A stretch of 21,292 nt of DNA from a virus: the IMG/VR virus record IMGVR_UViG_3300032304_001213, positions 1 to 21,292 of that record. One strand, 5' to 3'. The notes under the pieces are model-generated. The model was given only the letters and a program-made list of their open reading frames with translations. It made no database searches and had not been told where the DNA came from. How positions within the stretch are numbered: the first letter of the stretch is position 1; each line of letters starts with the position of its first letter. Positions 861 through 20,965 of the stretch are shown piece by piece. The position numbers and the translations under genes were made by a program.

Positions 861-3170
861 TTAGAATACTCCTTCGTCAAATGTTTCAATCGAATCCACA
901 TACTTCTGTGCCTTTGCGTTTAATCTTACACCCATGTAGACCTGCTGTCGGTCGCCGTTGTCGCGCACCTGCTCTGAGCGTACTAGCTGTTCCTGTGTGG
1001 CCGCTAAGAATCTGCGCTTGAACGCCTGCTCTGTCCCTGGGGGCATTGACTTCTTGAGCGCCCAGTGTTTGTAGCAGGCAAACACTTCCTCCTTGCTGAC
1101 CATGTAGTCAGGACTAAACTCCAGTGCGTCCTCAGAGAATGATCCGATTGGATTGCCCAGCTCGGCCATCAAGTCCAAGTATTCCTTACCCGAGTGTGGC
1201 TGCATAAAGTGACCGCCCCTAGCAATGCGCCGCTTGAGTCCTTCCATCGCCCAGTTAAAGATACCGCCTAGCTCTTGCTCCAGCTTATGTGACAAGTCGG
1301 TGTCTTCCTTGTTAAAAAACGACTTGCTCATTTTCAGCACGATCATGCGGCCTGTGAGAGCATTACTGTTCTCTGTCAGTTGTAGCACCTCATTAGAGTA
1401 GATTACCAAACGCGTAGGAAGATAGCCATTCCATGCCTCTTTATTCTTACGATTAACTGTAATAGTGTCGCCGCCCACAATACGAAGAAGCTGAGATACA
1501 ACAGCACTGCGATTTCGTTCGGGAGCTCGAGCGTCAGTAAAAGAAGCAAGCAGCTTGCCAAGCCAAGGTTGCAAACCAAAAGTATCACATAGTTCTCCCA
1601 GTTCGGGCGCGACGGTGTTGTGCTGTCCAAGCAGTGCCACCAGCACCTTGTTGATGGTGCCCTTGCCTGAGCGGCGTGGGCCGATGATGTTAAAGAATTT
1701 CTGCTGTCTCGTGTCTCCCGACAGGATGTAGCCGAACATCTCTTGCAGTGTGTCGATTGACTCTTGGTCATCACCCCACACCGAGCGCAAGAACGCGTCC
1801 CATGTAGGCGATGCGGCGGTCTGGTTGTACTCGAATGGCAGTGAGTTCTGCGTAAAGAATCCCAGTGAGTGCGGTATCAGTATGCTGTCCTCTAAATGGA
1901 AGATGCCATTCTTGAGCGAGACCAGCTTGGATGCGGCTGGCTTGGCGTGCGAGTAGTCTTCTAACCAAATCGGTGGCTTGGTGTTCGGGTGGTTGGGTAG
2001 GTGCACGATCGACTTGATTGCGTCGATTGCACCCGATACCGTGGCCGGTGACGGATTGAACGGCACCAGCGCACCCTGCTTGCCTGCCTTCTTGCACTTC
2101 TCTAAGAACGCGTACACCTTGGAGCGGATGGTGGCCTCCTCGATCACCTCGTAGTGCGTCCCTGCGTAGATAAAGAAGTCGTCTGCATAGTGCACCAGCT
2201 TGTAGCCCTCCTCGCTGGAGTAGTAGTTATCCAAGAACGTGCGGGCATGGTTCATTGCACCCGAGTCCAAGATAGTCTCGCCCCGAGCCAATGCCTCCTT
2301 GCGCTCTTGGTGGTTGACTTGGAACAGGAGCGAGCGTAGCGTCGCGCCCGATCCCTTGAACGTCCTCCATTTGTTCTCGCACGAGTAGTCTCCCGTGGCA
2401 GTGTAGCCTGCGCCCTGTGACGACCACCGATCCCATGCCTCACAAGCCTCGACGTCGCCGCCAAACTGGTGGTGCAGGATCGCGCCTACCTTAAGCCAGT
2501 CTGAGTAGCCCATGTTGGGATCGAGCTTGGCTAGGATCTCTGTCTCGACTCGGTGTATGTCGTACCCCTCGAGCGGGGCTGTGTAGTCACCGAAGGCGTC
2601 GCCTGTCTTGTGCAGTGTGCGCTCGGGGATCACCGAGCTCAAGTCCTGCACCTCGGCGGGCACCGTGCCGCTGATGTGCCTGCCAGTGACCGTAAAGAAA
2701 CGCGAGTTAGCGTACGCCTCAAAGCCGATGCTGTGGTCTGCGTGGGAGGCGAACGGGTTGGATCGGGTAAATATCTTGACGCCTGTGCCTGAGGGGCTGA
2801 CCTCCATGTAGCCGTTGACGTTGTCTGCTAATTGCTGCATTGCAGCATTTATGAAACCGGCTGTGTGGTGGTCGTAGCAATCATCTAAGTCGATTCCTAC
2901 TAGGTCGTCTTCGTGTGAGAAGACAAAGCCTACGCCGTCAAACTTGTGCGTGTTGTAGGCCTGCTCGACGGACATAAAATCCGTCCACGTCTTGGGGTCT
3001 GTCGATGAGGCATACCGCCCCGTTACTTGGAGCGGCATCTTAGCCCATCGCCGGTTCACCCCATCGCCTACCTGTACGAACGACCACATCACCCAGCGGG
3101 GCACCTTACGGAGCTCTAGGGGGATGTTGGCCAGCTCGACGGGCAGGCAAAATGGTTTGGTATCGCTCAT
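861..3170 (-). CDS. P4-alpha-type replication protein: primase-polymerase and SF3 helicase (769 aa)
   Basis: This is a replication initiator that makes primers and unwinds DNA. Residues 20-170 form an archaeo-eukaryotic primase (prim-pol) domain: IDLDDC with metal-binding Asp at 94 and 96, SPSGTG at 125-130 and TGRH at 162-165. Residues about 220-275 resemble the PriCT-2 linker domain (YSDWLKVG, then WDRWS). A superfamily 3 helicase follows, with Walker A GPRRSGKGT at 497-505, an acidic Walker-B-like region near 545 (SFTDAR) and the sensor YSNEV at 591-595. Residues about 675-750 look like the winged-helix C-terminal domain of the D5/P4 family (YMVSKEEVFACYKHW), which in P4 alpha binds origin iterons. 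The start ATG at 3170 has AAAGGA upstream. Just beyond the gene start lie a promoter, a palindrome and an iteron dyad, consistent with an adjacent origin. Length is close to that of P4 alpha (777 aa). No key residue appears missing. Confidence 0.93.
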   Translation of the reverse strand: MSDTKPFCLPVELANIPLELRKVPRWVMWSFVQVGDGVNRRWAKMPLQVTGRYASSTDPKTWTDFMSVEQAYNTHKFDGVGFVFSHEDDLVGIDLDDCYDHHTAGFINAAMQQLADNVNGYMEVSPSGTGVKIFTRSNPFASHADHSIGFEAYANSRFFTVTGRHISGTVPAEVQDLSSVIPERTLHKTGDAFGDYTAPLEGYDIHRVETEILAKLDPNMGYSDWLKVGAILHHQFGGDVEACEAWDRWSSQGAGYTATGDYSCENKWRTFKGSGATLRSLLFQVNHQERKEALARGETILDSGAMNHARTFLDNYYSSEEGYKLVHYADDFFIYAGTHYEVIEEATIRSKVYAFLEKCKKAGKQGALVPFNPSPATVSGAIDAIKSIVHLPNHPNTKPPIWLEDYSHAKPAASKLVSLKNGIFHLEDSILIPHSLGFFTQNSLPFEYNQTAASPTWDAFLRSVWGDDQESIDTLQEMFGYILSGDTRQQKFFNIIGPRRSGKGTINKVLVALLGQHNTVAPELGELCDTFGLQPWLGKLLASFTDARAPERNRSAVVSQLLRIVGGDTITVNRKNKEAWNGYLPTRLVIYSNEVLQLTENSNALTGRMIVLKMSKSFFNKEDTDLSHKLEQELGGIFNWAMEGLKRRIARGGHFMQPHSGKEYLDLMAELGNPIGSFSEDALEFSPDYMVSKEEVFACYKHWALKKSMPPGTEQAFKRRFLAATQEQLVRSEQVRDNGDRQQVYMGVRLNAKAQKYVDSIETFDEGVF

Positions 3171-3189: not shown

Positions 3190-3222
3190 TATAATAATAC
3201 AAAACAAGGGCTTATCGACGTT
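3190..3222 (-). promoter_or_regulatory. Variant of the phage promoter in front of the primase-helicase gene
   Basis: Read on the minus strand, 3202-3190 is TTGTATTATTATA, identical to the downstream box of the five plus-strand phage promoters. Counting the same 14 nt upstream gives AACGTC in place of GGGCGG, so the upstream element is different. The perfect palindrome at 3221-3235 overlaps that position. The predicted transcription start near 3187 leaves a leader of about 17 nt containing AAAGGA. Confidence 0.65.
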
Positions 3223-3691: not shown

Positions 3692-3882
3692 AGTGTCACC
3701 TCATAGTTTAGTCGTTTAATCATGTTGTATGCCCACTTACGGAAGGCATCCCTGTTCTCGGGAGTCTGCTCATCCCCCTCGTCCCACTCGGCAAAGACAA
3801 TAAATGATCCCAGCACGTCGTAAAACTCGATGCCTGTCAGGTTGCCGTCCTTATCTAATACGTCTTGTGGTATTGCGTTCAT
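3688..3882 (-). CDS. Small hypothetical protein (64 aa)
   Basis: The ATG at 3882 overlaps the stop of the upstream gene and the stop overlaps the start of the next, so it sits in a continuous chain of coupled genes below the sigma factor. The product begins MNAIPQDVLDKDG and has a beta-rich first half (IEFYDVLGSFIVFAEW), an acidic centre (DEGDEQTPENRD) and a C-terminal helix (AFRKWAYNMIKRL). It is soluble and acidic. No family is recognised. Confidence 0.75.
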   Translation of the reverse strand: MNAIPQDVLDKDGNLTGIEFYDVLGSFIVFAEWDEGDEQTPENRDAFRKWAYNMIKRLNYEVTL

Positions 3883-4229
3883 TCGTCCCCCTGTGTGATT
3901 GAGTAGGTGTCACGTAGCCTTGGTGACTCTTCGTTCCATGAGTCACTGGCACCGTAGTCGCCGCGGATGGCACTCATGCGCTCTGCCTTCCTAAACTCGG
4001 GCTCTACTCGCCACCATGCGCTTGATGCTGCCAAGTACTCGATGAAGTCATCGTTCTCTTCGAACAGTGGATGGTTAAGTCCCTCGACGTCGACGGTCTG
4101 TGTCACTACCGCCTGCCGCACCCATGGTCGCTTGGTGTAGCCCTCGGTGCGCACAATACCTACCTTGTCCCGTGCCGTAATGAATCGCTTGTATGCCTTC
4201 TGTTGCTCGTCTGTAAATTGTAGTGTCAT
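3879..4229 (-). CDS. Hypothetical protein directly downstream of the sigma factor (116 aa)
   Basis: The start ATG at 4229 overlaps the sigma-factor stop by the ATGA pattern, so the two should be made together. The sequence starts MTLQFTDEQQKAYKRFITARDKVG (helical), followed by a mixed region containing KRPWVRQAVVTQTVDVEG, an acidic helix (FEENDDFIEYLAAS) and a polar C-terminal tail. No helix-turn-helix typical of sigma region 4 is apparent. Because of its position it is a candidate partner of the sigma factor, for example a co-activator or polymerase-binding protein, but nothing in the sequence demonstrates this. Confidence 0.78.
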   Translation of the reverse strand: MTLQFTDEQQKAYKRFITARDKVGIVRTEGYTKRPWVRQAVVTQTVDVEGLNHPLFEENDDFIEYLAASSAWWRVEPEFRKAERMSAIRGDYGASDSWNEESPRLRDTYSITQGDE

Positions 4230-4798
4230 TCTTCGCTCTCTTCGTTAAAGTTGTCGTCGCTGATACTGCCCAGGGATACTGGTTCACGTGCCAAGCACGC
4301 ACGCAGTCGGTATATCTTACCACTATCCATGTCCAGCGCAGTCGCTAGCTCCTGTACCGTGGGCTTGCGCCCCAGTGACTGGGATAGGATGCGCTCGTTG
4401 TAGTGCATGCGGTAGATGTCCTCGACGACGTTGATGGGTAGCCGTATGATGTTGGCCGTGTTGTCAATCTCCCTGCGCACACCACGCTCGATAAACGAGC
4501 GGGCAAATGCCGCGAATGGTATCTTACCCATGGGTTTCCATCTCTTTGCCGCCTCCAGTAGCTTCTCGTTGCCGATTGCCAGTATGTCCTCCTGTGGTAG
4601 CTTACTGTGTTCCCATACCGTCATCTTGGTGACGACGTGGGGCACAAAGCGCAGGTTATGTCGCACCAGCTTTTCCAGTGCGTTGTCATCCCCTGCGGCG
4701 ATACGTTTAGCTAGATCCTTCTCTTCCTCCAGTGTTAGTGGCTCGATGCCGTATAGTGATTTCAGGTAGTCCGACTTGATGTCGTTGTTATTTGCCAT
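4226..4798 (-). CDS. Sigma-70 family factor lacking region 4, probably the late-promoter sigma (190 aa)
   Basis: The protein should direct RNA polymerase to phage promoters. Residues about 10-45 match region 1.2 (IEPLTLEEEKDLAKRIAAGD). Residues 46-120 match region 2, with LVRHNLRFV, then DILAIGNEKLLEAAKRWKP, then FAAFARSFIERGVRREIDN, the segment that binds the core enzyme and reads the -10 box. Residues 116-178 match region 3 (NIIRLPINVVEDI, LGRKPTVQELA, EPVSLGS). The chain then stops after a short acidic tail where region 3.2 and region 4 would follow, so the -35-reading domain is absent. T4 gp55, also about 185 residues and without a canonical region 4, is the closest known parallel in architecture. 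The start ATG at 4798 lies inside the end of the preceding small gene. It could instead be an early-middle sigma; the repeated promoter supports a late role. Confidence 0.88.
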   Translation of the reverse strand: MANNNDIKSDYLKSLYGIEPLTLEEEKDLAKRIAAGDDNALEKLVRHNLRFVPHVVTKMTVWEHSKLPQEDILAIGNEKLLEAAKRWKPMGKIPFAAFARSFIERGVRREIDNTANIIRLPINVVEDIYRMHYNERILSQSLGRKPTVQELATALDMDSGKIYRLRACLAREPVSLGSISDDNFNEESEE

Positions 4799-5263: not shown

Positions 5264-5292
5264 CTCCTAAAAAATGGGGCGGTTTTGCCCCG
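5264..5292 (-). terminator. Hairpin plus T-run in the leader of the lower early operon
   Basis: On the minus strand GGGGC and GCCCC pair around a six-base loop (5291-5276) and are followed by ATTTTTT, the form of an intrinsic terminator. The ribosome binding site of the 54-residue gene follows at once. It could stop transcripts arriving from the upper early operon or act as an attenuator. The same bases on the plus strand supply the GGGCGG box of the HNH promoter, so the pairing may partly be coincidence. Confidence 0.5.
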
Positions 5293-5309
5293 TTGTTTGT
5301 ATTATTATA
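5277..5309 (+). promoter_or_regulatory. Phage promoter upstream of the HNH gene
   Basis: GGGCGG at 5277-5282 is followed after exactly 14 nt by TTGTATTATTATA at 5297-5309. The two boxes and the spacing are the same as at the four other plus-strand sites in the window. The predicted start near 5312 gives an HNH-gene leader of about 85 nt. Confidence 0.8.
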
Positions 5310-5397: not shown

Positions 5398-5889
5398 ATG
5401 AAACGATTAAATCCAAATACGGGTTTGCCTTTTAAGCGTGGCGATCTTCGAGAAGATGGCCGAGTATTTAAAGGGTACAAGACAACAAAAACTAAGCACG
5501 ATGGGTATTATATAGAAAACTGGGTTACTGGTCAAGCATTGATTAAACAAAATGAATACAACAATCATTGGAAAAGAAATAACCCCGAAAAACATAATGC
5601 CCACGTCACTGCTTGTAAAAATAAAAACCCCGCTAAATATAACGCATTAAAGAGAAAACATAAATCCGCCAAAATACAGCGCACACCCCCTTGGCTAAAC
5701 GCCGAACATTGGGCTCAAATAGAATCGTTTTATAAACAAGCATACGACCTAAGCAAAGCCACTGGTATCCAACATCATGTTGATCATATTGTGCCTTTGC
5801 GTGGGCAATTTGTAAGTGGCCTCCATGTACCTTGGAATATGCAAGTATTGACAGCATCTGAAAACTGCTCTAAGTCAAACAGGGTTTGA
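5398..5889 (+). CDS. HNH homing endonuclease, antisense to the early operon (163 aa)
   Basis: This is an HNH nuclease of the free-standing phage type. The catalytic module is at the C-terminus: HHVDH at 126-130, followed by IVPLRG, GLHVPWNMQVLT (Asn 147) and ENCSKSNR (Asn 161). The N-terminus (TGLPFKRGD, then DGRVFKGY) and the basic centre (KRKHKSAKIQR) probably bind DNA. The gene is on the plus strand inside a minus-strand operon, is visibly richer in A/T than its neighbours, has its own phage-type promoter and overlaps the convergent gene by 20 nt. Those are the usual marks of a mobile selfish gene. Its insertion separates the upper and lower parts of the early block. The catalytic residues look intact. 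The cleavage site cannot be read from the sequence. Confidence 0.9.
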   Translation: MKRLNPNTGLPFKRGDLREDGRVFKGYKTTKTKHDGYYIENWVTGQALIKQNEYNNHWKRNNPEKHNAHVTACKNKNPAKYNALKRKHKSAKIQRTPPWLNAEHWAQIESFYKQAYDLSKATGIQHHVDHIVPLRGQFVSGLHVPWNMQVLTASENCSKSNRV

Positions 5890-8923: not shown

Positions 8924-9160
8924 CACCTATTTAATACTTGACTGCGCTGTGGGGTTTTGTGGGATAGTGTGGGATTGCTGGCCTCCCTCGTGCTGTTGTA
9001 TTCTCGCCCACCCTCCAATTTGACCCTCGCGTGCGCATCGCCCTGCAAGCCTTACTGGCTGGTACCCGAGTCCACCACGCTGTCAACGGCATGGTGCCAA
9101 TGCACCTGTGAGGCAAACTGCTAAAACGCCTCTATGCCCCCTTAAAACGCGCCCAATCCG

Positions 9161-9505
9161 TCAATAGGTGTTTACCCTAATAGCCAGCTAAGTTAGTCTG
9201 CACTAAGTTAATGCACCAAAATGGTGCACGCGCCAGCTTGGCTTTGTGGCACGTTGCCGCGTTGTTATCTTGCCACAGTGTTGCGTTCATACAACAAAGC
9301 TGGCGTATGCACCACATTGGTGCATTAACTTAGTGGCTACTAACATCATGCACCACATTGGTGCACGGGCCTGCTCGGCTCGGCAGACAGGGTGCTGGGC
9401 GCGGAGTCAATAGGTGTTTACCCTAGGTGTTGTGCCAGCGCAACAGTGGACTGCTGGCTCGGCATACAGGGTGCTGGGCGCGGAGTCAATAGGTGTTTAC
9501 CCTAG
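9161..9505. repeat. Three copies of TCAATAGGTGTTTACCCTA
   Basis: The 19-bp motif occurs identically at 9161-9179, 9407-9425 and 9486-9504. Its reverse face contains GGGTAAACA, one or two substitutions from the GGGTNNACA iterons of the origin-like elements. A fourth, partial copy in the opposite orientation covers the -35 box of the promoter at 8895-8923. These are good candidates for binding sites of the replication initiator or a regulator. Confidence 0.7.
9201..9335. repeat. Large inverted repeat with 38-bp arms
   Basis: CACTAAGTTAATGCACCA at 9201 and the following bases to 9238 match, in reverse complement and with few mismatches, the segment 9297-9335 that ends TTAACTTAGTG. Each arm contains a smaller palindrome, TGCACCA-N3-TGGTGCA (9212-9228 and 9308-9324). 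A third copy of that palindrome is at 9349-9365. The 58-bp centre holds a further inverted pair, GTGGCA with TGCCAC. As DNA this can form a cruciform; as RNA, a long hairpin. Confidence 0.75.
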
Positions 9506-9544
9506 GTGTTGCGTGCATACAACAGTGTGGCAAGATAACAACGC
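9259..9544. repeat. Perfect 18-bp inverted repeat 250 bp apart
   Basis: GCGTTGTTATCTTGCCAC at 9259-9276 is the exact reverse complement of 9527-9544. Beside each arm is a near-identical direct repeat, GTGTTGCGT(T/G)CATACAACA, at 9278-9296 and 9506-9524. The combination encloses the other repeats of the region. Confidence 0.7.
9377..9511. repeat. 56-bp direct repeat with 79-bp period
   Basis: The segment 9377-9432 recurs at 9456-9511 with a single substitution. It contains ACAGGGTGCTGGGCGCGGAG followed by the TCAATAGG motif. ACAGGGTG also resembles the junction between two tandem iterons. The repeat lies in the divergent intergenic region and codes for nothing recognisable. Confidence 0.75.
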
Positions 9545-9926: not shown

Positions 9927-9959
9927 GGGCGATAACCCCTAGTTGTTTGTATTATTATG
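9927..9959 (+). promoter_or_regulatory. Phage late promoter, first of the structural block
   Basis: GGGCGA (9927-9932) stands 14 nt before TTGTATTATTATG (9947-9959), with one substitution in each box relative to the other sites. If the first TATTAT is the -10 hexamer, the transcription start falls at about 9962, directly on the ATG at 9963. Confidence 0.78.
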
Positions 9960-9962
9960 TGT

Positions 9963-10271
9963 ATGAGCAAATACGTATACCAAATCCAAGGCGCCCTGGA
10001 GAGTAGGCAGGGAGAATTCTTGGGGCTTCGTGTCTTGGTATGTGATGCGTTTAACTTTGATTCGGTTGACATACCTGTAGAGGTACTGGATTCAGAAACC
10101 GCAAAGTACATGCAGTTCAGACTTTCTATTACGGCAGAGACGGTCAACATAGCAAGACTGCCGGTTGAAATCCAAAACAGAATACGCACGCCGTTAGGGC
10201 GATGGCTGGACCACTGGGTCCTAGATAATTTTTATGGCGATAACCGCAAATACAAAGATACTAACGCTTGA
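9963..10271 (+). CDS. Hypothetical protein, first late gene (102 aa)
   Basis: An ATG at 9957 lies inside the promoter's TATTATTATG box and cannot be transcribed, so I take the ATG at 9963, which gives a leaderless message. The product begins MSKYVYQIQGALESRQGEFL and is a mixed alpha/beta protein with a strand-rich first half (LGLRVLVCDAFNF) and a later segment ITAETVNIARLPVEIQNRI. The end, LGRWLDHWVLDNFYGDNRKY, is rich in aromatics. The gene overlaps the next by 38 nt. Its position two genes before the terminase large subunit makes a packaging role possible, but no small-terminase motif is visible. Confidence 0.78.
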   Translation: MSKYVYQIQGALESRQGEFLGLRVLVCDAFNFDSVDIPVEVLDSETAKYMQFRLSITAETVNIARLPVEIQNRIRTPLGRWLDHWVLDNFYGDNRKYKDTNA

Positions 10272-11226
10272 TTACTGGAAGCCAGCCTACAAGCTGGAGG
10301 TAGGTGACTATGTCTTTGATCGTAAGGGCAACATAGTCCAGGTCAAACTAGCGCAGCAGTACCAAGGCATACGCTGCTATGAGGTCATGTTCAACGACTA
10401 CCTGACGGTGGAGGGTGACGCCAACCTGGCGCTACCCACAGAGAACCCCAAATACCGTAACAGGCTGGTCACGTACAAGGGCAAGCTGCAGTTTAGGCGC
10501 CCTCTTAAGCCACTAACGGCCGAGCAGATGCTTGATATGCCGCTACTGGATCAACACAACCGCAAGATACTCTCGGTCCCCACCACAAACCCCCTGGCAT
10601 TACCCCACCAAGACCTACCAGTCCCAGCGTTTGTCTTTGGGTTCTGGTTCTTTGCCCGTAGATCGACTGGCAGGATGGCTGCGGCCAAGGGAACAACCGA
10701 GTTTGTGGTGCAACGATTCAAAGACCATGGCTACAAAGTGGTTATGGGACCGCTGATCAACACCGGGGAGCGCGAATTTAGCGTCACACCCACAGTTGAG
10801 TCGCAGTTAATCCCCAACATCCCCAAGATTATCACCAACAACTACCTTTTTTCGTCGCCAGAGCAGCGACAAGACTTACTTTCTGGCATTGTCTGCGCAA
10901 AAAACAGGCGTTACAACAAGAGATCAGACCGTTTTCGGTTTTCTTCTCGCCAATACGACACCGTTCGCCGTGTCCAGCTCCTGGCAGAGTCCCTTGGCGG
11001 GCGGTCTAGCCTGCAAAGTGACGACCACAAGAAGGATTTTACGGTTTTCTTTAAGATCCGCGCGCCCATCCACCCGGAACAGAGCTCGCCCAAAGTAAAA
11101 GTCCACCATGGCAGACGTTATGTCAGCAAGATCAGCCCAATCCCGACCCAGATGTGTGTGCACATTGAGACAACGGGCGAGGATAACACCATTTTAGTGG
11201 GGGAGGGCTTCATACCATGTCTTTAA
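10234..11226 (+). CDS. Intein-derived (Hint/LAGLIDADG-like) protein without catalytic residues (330 aa)
   Basis: The protein begins exactly where an intein would: MAITANTKILTLDYWK aligns with intein block A (C-x-x-x-D/N-TKILT-x-x-G-WK), but the first catalytic Cys is Ala. EVGDYVFDRKG (22-32) is the usual next strand. Block B, expected around residues 58-68 (VEGDANLALP), lacks the His. The C-terminus, CVHIETTGEDNTILVGEGF followed by IPCL, matches intein blocks F and G, but the terminal His-Asn is missing and the chain stops there. The middle resembles a dodecapeptide homing endonuclease: FVFGFWFFARRS (133-144) and LLSGIVCAKN (215-224) followed by RFRFSS and LLAESLGG. Both motif aspartates are replaced. 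It lies directly before, and overlaps, the terminase gene, the usual small-terminase position. No good ribosome binding site precedes the ATG. Confidence 0.75.
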   Translation: MAITANTKILTLDYWKPAYKLEVGDYVFDRKGNIVQVKLAQQYQGIRCYEVMFNDYLTVEGDANLALPTENPKYRNRLVTYKGKLQFRRPLKPLTAEQMLDMPLLDQHNRKILSVPTTNPLALPHQDLPVPAFVFGFWFFARRSTGRMAAAKGTTEFVVQRFKDHGYKVVMGPLINTGEREFSVTPTVESQLIPNIPKIITNNYLFSSPEQRQDLLSGIVCAKNRRYNKRSDRFRFSSRQYDTVRRVQLLAESLGGRSSLQSDDHKKDFTVFFKIRAPIHPEQSSPKVKVHHGRRYVSKISPIPTQMCVHIETTGEDNTILVGEGFIPCL

Positions 11227-12662
11227 CAACAAAACAAGAGGCCATCCTCAAGCGATTTGCCGAGGAGCGCAAGAATTGGCCCCAGCAACAGCTCGATGCG
11301 GCGATCTGGCAGATCAAATGGAGCCTACAAGCCCTGCCGCACCAGAAAGAACCAGACGATGGAGAGTATGATACGTTTCTTATGCTTGCCGGTCGTGGAT
11401 CGGGTAAGACCCACACTGCCAGCCATTGGATTGGCATTCGTGCTTGGCGTTATGACAACACCCGCTGGCTCGTCACCGCTCCCACCTCAAACGATATACG
11501 TGCAACTTGTTTCGAGGGGGACTCCGGACTTATCAGTATCATTCCCCCGTCACTTATCCGGGATTACAACAAGTCACTCTTTGAGATTACCCTCACCAAC
11601 GGGTCTATCATTCAGGGTATCCCAGCCTCAGAGCCAGAACGGTACCGTGGTAAGCAATACCATGGGGCCTGGTTCGACGAGTTGTGTGCATTCGATTACA
11701 TCGACGATGCCTACGACGGCGTACAGTTTACCCTACGTCTTAAGGACCCGCGAATCCCTCGAGTGCAGCAGATTATTACCACCACTCCAAAGCCCAAGGA
11801 ACTGATTGTAGACCTTAACGAGGGCAAGGTAGGGGGTGATGTATACGTAGCCAATGCAAGCTCCTACGACAACCGTGCAAACCTCTCAGAGACCTTTTTT
11901 AAGCAGCTAGAGACGTACGAGGGAACAGACATTGGTAAGCAGGAGATCTATGGCGAGATCCTAGACCCTGAGGCGGCTGGTATCATCAAGCGCAAACATT
12001 TCCGCATGTGGCCAGCGAACAAGCCCACCCCGGTCCTAGAGTACGTGATTGCCTCGTATGACCCGGCGACCTCTGAGAAAACGGTGAATGACCCCACTGC
12101 CTGTACGGTCTGGGGTGTGTTCGAGAGAGAAGACGCTGGGACGTCTGTCATACTGCTAGACGCATGGGACGCGCACCTGTCGTACCCCGAGCTGCGTCGT
12201 AAGGTGATTGATGACTTCAAGGAAGTTGTCTACGGAGCAGACAATGACTTCGGTAAGGGCAAGAAGGCCGACCTGATACTGATGGAAGACAAGTCCGCCG
12301 GTATCTCGCTGATACAAGAACTCCAAGGCGCTGGCGTGCCCGTCAGGGGATACAATCCAGGCCGCGCGGATAAGATCCAGCGTATCAACATTGTGGCCCC
12401 GCTCGTGCTTAAGGGTAAGGTCTACATCCCCGAAGAGCCAAGTAACCCAGGCGAGTACGCCAACTGGGCCAAACGCTTCATGCGGCAGGTTTGTTCATTT
12501 CCGGAGGCTGGGGGTCATGACGACTACGTTGACAGCCTCAGCCAGGCCCTACGCGTCCTCAGGGACTCTGGCTGGTTGCAGCTTGATCCGTTGCCTGCCA
12601 GGGACTATGACTACGCTGACGACGACTCAAACAGGAAGTTTAGCAATCCCTACGCACAATAG
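11217..12662 (+). CDS. terL: Terminase large subunit (481 aa)
   Basis: This is the DNA-packaging motor and nuclease. The ATPase has Walker A GRGSGKT at 59-65, Walker B AWFDE at 151-155 and a coupling motif TTTPKP around 188-193. The RNase H-like nuclease domain shows the acidic triad at Asp 282 (ASYDPA), Asp 358 (LMEDKS) and Asp 436 (GGHDDYVDS). Length and order of motifs are normal for a complete terminase and there is no internal intein, which matters because an intein relative lies immediately upstream. The ATG overlaps the end of that gene by 10 nt. No strong Shine-Dalgarno sequence is present (GGGGGAGGG lies about 8 nt upstream and may serve). The next gene starts behind its own late promoter. 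Confidence 0.95.
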   Translation: MSLTTKQEAILKRFAEERKNWPQQQLDAAIWQIKWSLQALPHQKEPDDGEYDTFLMLAGRGSGKTHTASHWIGIRAWRYDNTRWLVTAPTSNDIRATCFEGDSGLISIIPPSLIRDYNKSLFEITLTNGSIIQGIPASEPERYRGKQYHGAWFDELCAFDYIDDAYDGVQFTLRLKDPRIPRVQQIITTTPKPKELIVDLNEGKVGGDVYVANASSYDNRANLSETFFKQLETYEGTDIGKQEIYGEILDPEAAGIIKRKHFRMWPANKPTPVLEYVIASYDPATSEKTVNDPTACTVWGVFEREDAGTSVILLDAWDAHLSYPELRRKVIDDFKEVVYGADNDFGKGKKADLILMEDKSAGISLIQELQGAGVPVRGYNPGRADKIQRINIVAPLVLKGKVYIPEEPSNPGEYANWAKRFMRQVCSFPEAGGHDDYVDSLSQALRVLRDSGWLQLDPLPARDYDYADDDSNRKFSNPYAQ

Positions 12663-12694
12663 GGCGGAAACGGCTTCATTCTTGTATTATTATA
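12662..12694 (+). promoter_or_regulatory. Phage late promoter between terminase and the structural genes
   Basis: GGGCGG (12662-12667), 14 nt, TTGTATTATTATA (12682-12694). It begins at the terminase stop codon. The predicted start near 12697 leaves at most about four nucleotides before the ATG at 12701, so the message is almost leaderless. Confidence 0.85.
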
Positions 12695-16304: not shown

Positions 16305-16337
16305 GGGCGGATTTTCTAGCTCCTTTGTATTATTATA
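16305..16337 (+). promoter_or_regulatory. Phage late promoter before the co-chaperonin and scaffold genes
   Basis: GGGCGG (16305-16310), 14 nt, TTGTATTATTATA (16325-16337). The predicted start near 16340 coincides with the ATG at 16341, giving a leaderless message. Confidence 0.85.
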
Positions 16338-16340
16338 AGT

Positions 16341-16532
16341 ATGAAAGACTTTATTTCTGAAATTATCTCGCGCACGCGGGACGAACAGGCAAAATTGGCG
16401 GAAACCCTCACCGCTGGAAGTAATGTGAATAGCTTTGACGATTACCAGCGCTTAGTTGGTAGGTTTGAAGGATTCAAGGAAGTACTCGACATTATAAATG
16501 AAATTTTGAGGGAAGACGAAGACGACCTGTAG
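16341..16532 (+). CDS. Small acidic hypothetical protein (63 aa)
   Basis: The ATG lies four bases beyond the promoter box, so the first codon is at or next to the 5' end of the message. The product begins MKDFISEIISRTRDEQAKLA and is all-helical by pattern: a first amphipathic helix, a loop (TAGSNVNSFDD) and a second helix (YQRLVGRFEGFKEVLDIINEI), ending in an acidic tail (REDEDDL). Short two-helix proteins with the pattern 'D-YQRLVGRF-G' recur in head-gene blocks of phages. No function is known to me. Confidence 0.8.
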   Translation: MKDFISEIISRTRDEQAKLAETLTAGSNVNSFDDYQRLVGRFEGFKEVLDIINEILREDEDDL

Positions 16533-16554: not shown

Positions 16555-16992
16555 GTGTTTGATTTAAAAGGCAATGAAGAGCCGGATACACGATCAGAGG
16601 AAGAATGTTTTCCCGCAATCGACACCGGTATTGAGGTAGCTGGAGACCGTGTCCTAGTACAACTACGACGCGAAAAATCAACCAGCAAGGGCGGAATCAT
16701 CCTAGTCGATGAGACCAGACAGACGCTACGATTTAACGAGACGGTTGCAAAGGTAGTCCAGATTGGACCCCTAGCATACAAATCGCCAGACACACTGGAG
16801 CCGTGGATTGAAGGCCCCTGGTGTAATGTGGGTGACTTGGTTCGCACTATCAAGTACGGCGGCGATCGTTTTGTTGTGCAACCAGATGATGAGGGTTCTC
16901 CCGTAGTATTCATCACGTTGCAGGCTCGTGAAATCATTTCTCGCATCAAGTCGTTTGAGTATGCGCAGAAAATGAAAGCGTTCATAGATTAA
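16555..16992 (+). CDS. GroES-like co-chaperonin (145 aa)
   Basis: The protein matches the GroES/Cpn10 fold: GDRVLVQL at 30-37, the mobile-loop-like STSKGGIIL at 42-50, AKVVQIGP at 65-72, VGDLVRTIKYGG at 92-103 and a C-terminal strand at 117-124. GroES caps the host GroEL ring. Phage versions such as T4 gp31 are needed to fold the major capsid protein, which fits its place just before scaffold and capsid genes. It is longer than bacterial GroES (about 97 aa) because of an N-terminal extension of about 25 residues, an insert around residues 73-90 and a C-terminal helix. The start is GTG at 16555 with GGGAG upstream; no in-frame ATG is near. The start is therefore less certain than the family. 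Confidence 0.82.
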   Translation: MFDLKGNEEPDTRSEEECFPAIDTGIEVAGDRVLVQLRREKSTSKGGIILVDETRQTLRFNETVAKVVQIGPLAYKSPDTLEPWIEGPWCNVGDLVRTIKYGGDRFVVQPDDEGSPVVFITLQAREIISRIKSFEYAQKMKAFID

Positions 16993-20268: not shown

Positions 20269-20301
20269 GGGCGGTTTTGCCGACTTTCTTGTATTATTAT
20301 A
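20269..20301 (+). promoter_or_regulatory. Phage late promoter after the capsid terminator
   Basis: GGGCGG (20269-20274), 14 nt, TTGTATTATTATA (20289-20301). Unlike the other structural-block copies it is followed by a leader of about 90 nt before the ATG at 20393, with ATAAGGA as ribosome binding site. It lies directly behind the terminator, so it resets transcription for the next genes. Confidence 0.87.
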
Positions 20302-20392: not shown

Positions 20393-20965
20393 ATGTCTAG
20401 CACATTTACAACCCCCATTCGTGTATTTAAGCGTAACAACCCAACAAACAACGGCGTTATTGCCCCAGACAACACAGGCGCCGTACGCCTCAGCCAACAA
20501 CAGTTTATTACCAACCCAATTACAGCCGTAACCGAAGCAGCCACTGTTTTAACCACAGCGGATGTCGGTACAACTACTGCAGTTCCCTTTGTATTGCCAG
20601 CCGGCGCAATTATTGAAGGTTTTGCTTTATACCAAGACGTAGCCGCTGGCGGCCTCGTTGGTGGTGTAATCACTGTAGCTATTGCTCAAACTAACCCAAC
20701 AACTGGCGTGGTAACTACTACTACAATTGGCACCATTACCCCAACAGCAGCCGGTGGCCGTATCGTTGGTGTGTTTACTGCTAGTGCAGCCGTTGCCAAC
20801 ATTATTGAAAACATCGGTACACTCGATGCTACATTGACTTTTTCTGCAGCTGCCGTAACAACATTGACAAGCGGCTCTTTGGCAGGTACATTCTCTGTTG
20901 ACTACACAGCACGTAACGCAGACGGTTCAATTATCGCCTACGGTTCTGGTTATACAAATAACTAA
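20393..20965 (+). CDS. Structural protein, beta-rich (190 aa)
   Basis: The start ATG has AAGGA at correct spacing. The product begins MSSTFTTPIRVFKRNNPTNN and is almost wholly made of Thr, Ala, Val, Gly and Ile (VLTTADVGTTTAVPFVLPAG, GVVTTTTIGTITPTAAGG), alternating strands and loops with few charged residues. That composition and its own strong late promoter indicate an abundant virion protein, such as a decoration, tail or fibre component. No specific family is recognised. Confidence 0.78.
   Translation: MSSTFTTPIRVFKRNNPTNNGVIAPDNTGAVRLSQQQFITNPITAVTEAATVLTTADVGTTTAVPFVLPAGAIIEGFALYQDVAAGGLVGGVITVAIAQTNPTTGVVTTTTIGTITPTAAGGRIVGVFTASAAVANIIENIGTLDATLTFSAAAVTTLTSGSLAGTFSVDYTARNADGSIIAYGSGYTNN

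Follow-up and report, generated by a model that had tools for sequence, protein, structure and literature searches.

A phage sigma factor without region 4, its overlapping neighbour gene and promoters with a fixed -35 box: a possible two-gene split sigma

Introduction

Late transcription in phage T4 depends on two phage proteins, gp55 and gp33, and is activated by the gp45 clamp, while in phage SPO1 the products of two adjacent genes, gp33 and gp34, jointly make up the late sigma. According to the accessible sections of PMC2988020, T4 gp55 and gp33 together form a split sigma in which gp33, with 112 aa, mimics sigma-4 but does not read sequence, and late promoters have no -35 element; the excerpted text of PMC7892883 has gp33 contacting the DNA backbone only. 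Because the promoters served by the T4 split sigma have no -35 element, its sigma-4 mimic reads nothing. For SigO-RsoA of B. subtilis, the part of PMC10028694 available to us assigns the sigma-4 domain to one protein and the sigma-2 domain to the other.

Here we analyse a window of 21,292 bp, an IMG/VR virus record in which terminase, portal, primase, a GroES-like protein and capsid are present. We suggest, with roughly even confidence, that it encodes a two-gene split sigma that works in the manner of gp55/gp33 but whose partner is unrelated and whose promoters have a genuine -35 element. A literature search that saw its sources in part and was thin on subscription journals found no earlier account of such a system. 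The features discussed below are collected in Table 1.

Table 1. Features of the window relevant to the proposed system (positions count from the first letter of the window; +1 positions are inferred).
Feature	Position	Strand	Remarks
Primase gene	861-3170	-	promoter -10 at 3190..3202
-10 motif, primase gene	3190..3202	-	no GGGCG box
Palindrome TTTCACATTGTGAAA	3221..3235	-	centred about -42 of primase promoter
p116 (116 aa)	3879..4229	-	family without recognised relative; proposed partner subunit
Sigma-70 factor	4226..4798	-	190 aa; regions 1.2, 2, 3.0-3.1 and start of 3.2; no region 4; acidic tail
-35 box GGGCGG	5277..5282	+	-36 to -31 from inferred +1
-10 motif TTGTATTATTATA	5297..5309	+	inferred +1 5313
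Endonuclease VII-like gene	5398-5889	+	3' of the 5277/5297 promoter
-35 box GGGCGA	9927..9932	+	20 bp upstream of -10
-10 motif TTGTATTATTATG	9947..9959	+	inferred +1 9963 = A of ATG (putative leaderless start)
-35 box GGGCGG	12662..12667	+	at terminase stop
-10 motif	12682..12694	+	inferred +1 12698; gene starts 12701
-35 box GGGCGG	16305..16310	+	20 bp upstream of -10
-10 motif	16325..16337	+	inferred +1 16341 = A of ATG of 63-aa gene 16341-16532 (putative leaderless start)
-35 box GGGCGG	20269..20274	+	20 bp upstream of -10
-10 motif	20289..20301	+	inferred +1 20305; upstream of 20393-20965

Results

The sigma factor ends before region 4

The 190-aa protein is a truncated member of the sigma-70 family, as T4 gp55 is. 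Pfam matches region 1.2 at residues 11-38, region 2 at residues 44-111 and part of region 3 at residues 136-178; the region 2 match scores 23.7 bits in one search, just under the cut-off of 24, and 25.6 bits, above it, in a second. Of the regions that define the family, 1.2, 2 and 3 (the last partly matched) are thus present, and region 4 of the same protein is missing: Pfam finds none, and nothing is matched past residue 178. Aligned with SigA, the sigma profile stops at residue 268 of 371. An AF2 model (pLDDT 79.4, with a low-confidence tail) superposes over residues 3-173 on residues 53-220 of sigmaS (Z 17.3, 168 residues aligned, rmsd 13.8). The protein ends at the start of region 3.2; an earlier note on this DNA had likewise read it as carrying regions 1.2, 2 and 3 but not region 4.

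Relatives share the truncation. A sigma of 190 aa is likewise encoded by two close ones, of which one is in a 61,329-bp record (G001), and a profile built from four sequences retrieves 25 loci at 46-99% identity. In all 25 the protein ends 183-193 residues past the match start, about 15 residues beyond an invariant P-x-S-L, and a homologue of the 116-aa protein (p116) comes next after sigma. Region 2.4 differs among lineages. Searched against a phage collection, the sigma matches 52 records, all at less than 60% identity and at 24-40% among the matches listed; among those inspected, five have a longer sigma of at least 274 aa, and one (L019) adjoins bacterial-looking genes.

A frameshift or a later frame might have supplied the missing region, which would have overturned the earlier reading. 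We looked for such a frame and found none; Pfam, the conserved sigma ends and searches of whole records with region-4 models together rule it out. The model PF04545 gives no match above cut-off in sets of 4, 26 and 10 records (the sets of 4 and 26 overlap), nor does PF08281 in 15 records, and the control searches found a match in 14 of 14 genomes. Sub-threshold matches occur in 15/26, 3/10 and 4/15 records and, where they could be placed, belong to the C-terminal part of the sigma itself, to a helicase frame or to a small protein resembling region 4.

A GGGCG box at a fixed distance from the -10 motif

The window has six copies of the -10 motif TTGTATTATTAT and G001 has 14; GGGCG starts exactly 20 bp upstream of the first T in 5/6 and 8/14 of them, respectively. 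The claim of a fixed GGGCGG at the -35 distance therefore holds for five of the six window promoters, with four boxes reading GGGCGG and one GGGCGA, and fails at the primase promoter, 3202(-), where the box is absent. The hexamer GGGCGG as such is only mildly over-represented, with 15 occurrences in the window against a mean of 8.8 in shuffles.

To look beyond the window, we collected 118 sites matching a loosened -10 motif in 26 records found through the sigma (G006, G012 and G019 are partial sequences), excluding sites less than 60 bp from a record start or less than 40 bp from a record end. GGGCG stands at -20 in 52 and at -19 in three of these, and at no other offset between -60 and -6. 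After reduction by flank similarity, 77 sites remain, with the box at -20 in 34 and at -19 in three, where 0.05 would be expected per offset; it is consequently the spacing, rather than the hexamer count, that goes beyond chance. The same spacing emerges when the 26 records are searched for GGGCG-Nk-TTGYAT, which gives 61 matches at k=15 and 0-4 at each other k from 5 to 30. In a further 49 records found through p116, GGGCG-N15-TTGYATNANT has 53 sites in 26 records and the reversed control pattern none.

The box is not universal. It is missing from both -20 and -19 at 40/77 dereplicated sites, and 23 of the 49 p116 records have no match to the full pattern, so that the box is either not needed or not seen everywhere. 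Nine of these 23 records were inspected: seven have the box at the orthologous promoter, while in G052 and G053 the orthologous gene was not found and the promoters shown lack it. This orthologous promoter, that of the 63-aa gene, was compared across 18 records bearing a G handle and selected by sigma or p116, with GGGCG placed 36 bp before the ATG in 15, 35 bp before it in two and nowhere in one, G024, which belongs to the most distant sigma group. Note that the orthologous-promoter set as a whole mixes sources and that 15/18 covers the G-handle records only. Seven of the 15 boxes come from records whose differing -10 had hidden them from the combined box and TTGYAT search.

In IMG/VR, 67 stretches match GGGCG-N15-TTGTATTATTAT, compared with eight at spacings of 16-23, which is a rough control only. 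Of the 66 stretches from this IMG/VR scan that were compared, seven of them from the record of G001, 64 share proteins with G001. Since the scan selects loci by the box, the counts given above rest on records found via sigma or p116. Taken together, these patterns make the box very probably a real promoter element at the -35 position, though one too constant for covariation with p116 to be tested.

The -10 motif varies and is followed by a start-like A

While the box stays unchanged, the -10 motif reads TTGTATTATTATA, TTGCATTATTGTA, TTGCATTAATATA, TTGCATTAGTA, TTGCATAAGTA or CGTATTAGT depending on lineage. Its octamer resembles the T4 late consensus. We consider it highly likely that the sigma reads this -10. 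Counting from the first T of the motif, position 17 is A in 72/77 and position 16 is T in 64/77 dereplicated sites. If A17 is +1, the box occupies -36 to -31 and lies 17 bp from the octamer at -13, a layout like that of an ordinary bacterial promoter.

Position 17 coincides with the A of an ATG at 19 of the 77 sites. In 18 cases the frame that follows has 63-156 codons, and many of these frames belong to a small number of orthologous genes; one frame has eight codons. An ATG at the inferred start suggests that several promoters give rise to leaderless phage mRNAs. The window promoters at 9963 and 16341 have orthologs among the position-17 ATG sites of relatives.

The gene next to the sigma and the reader of the box

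The sigma stop and the p116 start overlap in ATGA (4226-4229), and it was by position that this coupled gene had been named as a candidate partner. Its pairing with the sigma recurs in relatives. A search with a profile of p116 alone, whose seed sequences came from sigma-bearing loci, recovered 115 IMG/VR relatives plus one MAG contig, the sole match from the genome collection, which is labelled beta proteobacterium. Among the 81 loci examined (the best 80 of the 115, and the MAG contig), a truncated sigma lies directly upstream in 80, the lone unpaired locus (L234) being cut by a contig edge. The sigma frame stops within four residues of the profile end in 80/80 paired loci; in 10 of them a gap of 141-151 bp separates the two genes, and two of the sigmas are without their N-terminus at a contig edge. 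Because many contigs are near-identical, 80/81 should not be read as 80 independent cases. On the strength of this pairing p116 is a strong candidate partner, and we think it reasonably likely that it joins the sigma in the holoenzyme.

Relatives without the pair fit this picture. MW202545 (complete, Manatee Spring) and Caulobacter phage RW have terminase and portal homologous to those of the group, and neither sigma nor p116 was found in them, nor any promoters of this type; the single spacer-15 match in MW202545 falls inside an annotated coding gene. We count this joint absence in favour of a split sigma.

What p116 is cannot be read from its relatives. By Pfam, PHROG and PDB-sequence searches it has no recognised HTH and no resemblance to region 4, the best matches being DUF4743 (E 0.019), a PHROG of unknown function (E 0.0031) and a PDB sequence at E 0.64. 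The model (pLDDT 75.1, with a low-confidence C-terminal part) consists of a long helix, a beta hairpin and two helices, with no clear HTH. Compared with PDB folds, its best Foldseek hit has E 1.6 and its best VIA-align hit Z 3.6 (rmsd 5.5, 72 residues aligned); two uncharacterised phage proteins, at E 1.3e-8 and 1.5e-3, are the only BFVD matches below E 0.5. Aligned by hhalign with T4 gp33 alone, the p116 profile shows no detectable kinship (probability 0.2%, E 0.37). That p116 itself contacts the box is a possibility to which we give somewhat less than even weight.

The sigma might be split and the box nonetheless be read by something else, namely a phage or host DNA-binding protein that activates from -35, with p116 otherwise employed, for example as a gp33-like repressor/co-activator or an anti-host factor. 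We regard this as rather unlikely. There is no positive support for such a reader, the sole HTH-like core protein noticed resembling a small terminase subunit (phrog_309, E 3.1e-9), although other small proteins of unknown function are core to the group (7/7 records compared with G001) and, like the sigma, were not found in the two sigma-less relatives. T4 gp33 itself reads no sequence, according to the portion of PMC2988020 cited above, which likewise favours a reader other than p116.

The same alternative gains from a second class of promoters. At 15 of the 40 box-less sites we find a palindrome like TTTCACATTGTGAAA, agreeing with it in 11 or more of 15 letters (no other site exceeds nine), at offset -32/-33 and centred on -41/-42; it recurs near G001 537 and 12692. 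By its sequence and place it looks like an activator or operator site. Its centre is where class II activators sit, which fits a sigma in need of help from a protein bound upstream.

Many boxes also pair with the spacer

On a quite different explanation, the box would be nothing but a 5' hairpin arm, part of a terminator-like structure that belongs to the upstream gene, its distance fixed because terminators abut these promoters. Hairpin enrichment is indeed clear. Box and spacer fold at a mean of -5.06 kcal/mol over 34 box sites, compared with -2.34 kcal/mol when spacers are shuffled, and the box pairs with the spacer at p<=0.05 (200 spacer shuffles) in 15 of them; the orthologous promoter reaches an MFE of -4 kcal/mol or lower in 21/31 sequences. 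(These are 31 of 35: G018, G020 and G024 were left out for having no box at -36, and L027 for repeating L064 up to the ATG.) Yet a stable hairpin, as an intrinsic terminator would need at every box, is lacking at 9/31 orthologous promoters, which fold above -2 kcal/mol, and at 4/34 sites, which lie at -1 or above, with the box kept in each case. Furthermore, the letters from -36 to -32 are invariant in the 31 orthologous sequences, which were chosen for having the box, whereas the pairing arm is not. Perfect terminator-like hairpins exist at other promoters, G001 2156 and 58774, which lends the explanation some colour, but these two have no GGGCG at -20. Persistence of the box in weak folders and its absence from two perfect hairpins argue that it is selected in its own right, and we reject the box as a mere hairpin arm, an explanation that strikes us as very improbable.

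We conclude that the hairpin is an added feature that comes and goes. Given the pairing with the spacer, the box may also serve in a hairpin of the upstream transcript. This double use of many boxes, like the palindrome class without a box, had no place in the earlier note.

As a separate observation, four sites (G001 2156 and 58774, G005 25481 and G018 25607) carry a terminator-like hairpin whose T-run merges into the -10 motif; they are fused terminators and promoters.

Least likely of all, and hardly to be credited, is the earlier suggestion of a region-4 domain from elsewhere, be it a stand-alone phage protein or region 4 of the host sigma: one small protein, 54 aa long when counted from its M, does weakly resemble region 4.2 along one stretch (16.4 bits; cut-off 24.1), but it occurs in only 3/35 records (G006, G009 and G012, 96-98% identical; G009:32664-32831 +), its relatives were not found in the other 32 (tblastn E<=0.1; several are fragments), PF04545 and PF08281 gave nothing above cut-off, and GGGCGG is unlike the usual sigma-70 -35. 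We accordingly reject this small protein as a general reader.

Other features of the window

Three further features of the window deserve mention. A 330-aa ORF at 10234-11226 (+) overlaps the terminase start and has weak matches to large-terminase profiles; it is possibly a stand-alone Hint or endonuclease-like insert and is present in 7/7 records compared with G001. A GroES-like co-chaperonin gene (16555-16992, +) lies inside the head gene cluster. Between the two gene arms, copies of GTCAATAGGTGTTTACCCTA and palindromes of the form TGCACCA...TGGTGCA recur within 9160-9510; in other records the repeats are of a kind of their own.

Discussion

Having weighed the alternatives, we return to the split sigma, in which a second protein probably reads the box that the shortened sigma should not read alone. 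In the scheme we propose, the truncated sigma would use regions 1.2 and 2 to dock on the core RNA polymerase of the host, and would recognise an extended -10 made up of TTG and a T4-late-like octamer. A separate protein would fill the place of region 4 and contact GGGCGG at -36 to -31; p116, encoded by the overlapping gene that follows, is the best candidate for this role. The two would jointly fire promoters that include those on the terminase/portal/capsid side, several with their start on an ATG, and at some other promoters, that of primase included, the palindrome near -41 would take the place of the box.

With a constant box, a -10 that drifts between lineages and a sigma that has no domain to read the box, nature has here set up a test of whether a non-sigma protein can take over -35 reading; many aligned promoters are available for it, and the candidate gene is small and closely linked. 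Promoters that start on an ATG suggest, in addition, that leaderless phage mRNAs may be routine here. More tentative than the claim of box contact is the idea that p116 represents a new kind of promoter-reading subunit, unrelated to region 4 and without a recognisable HTH, that occupies the place of region 4 on the polymerase and reads the -35 by sequence; if true, half of a sigma factor would have given way to an unrelated invention.

How does this compare with known systems? From RpoD, SigA and RpoS, which it matches in alignment and fold over regions 1.2 to 3.1, the present sigma differs in having no region 4, an altered region 2.4 (compared by eye) and another -10. With SPO1 gp33/gp34 it shares the arrangement of two adjacent phage genes. 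The likeness to T4 gp55/gp33 lies in a sigma without region 4 and a short separate partner (112 aa for gp33, 116 aa for p116). Unlike in T4, however, the sigma and p116 genes overlap, the sigma keeps regions 1.2 and 3, p116 shows no homology to gp33, and many promoters have a -35 box at the fixed position -36, where T4 late promoters, as the consulted sections describe them, have none. SigO-RsoA, as far as the same partial source goes, similarly divides promoter-reading duties between two proteins, but its second subunit is a sigma-4, which p116 is not recognisable as. On the features tested, the present system works like those of T4 and SigO-RsoA and is a member of neither.
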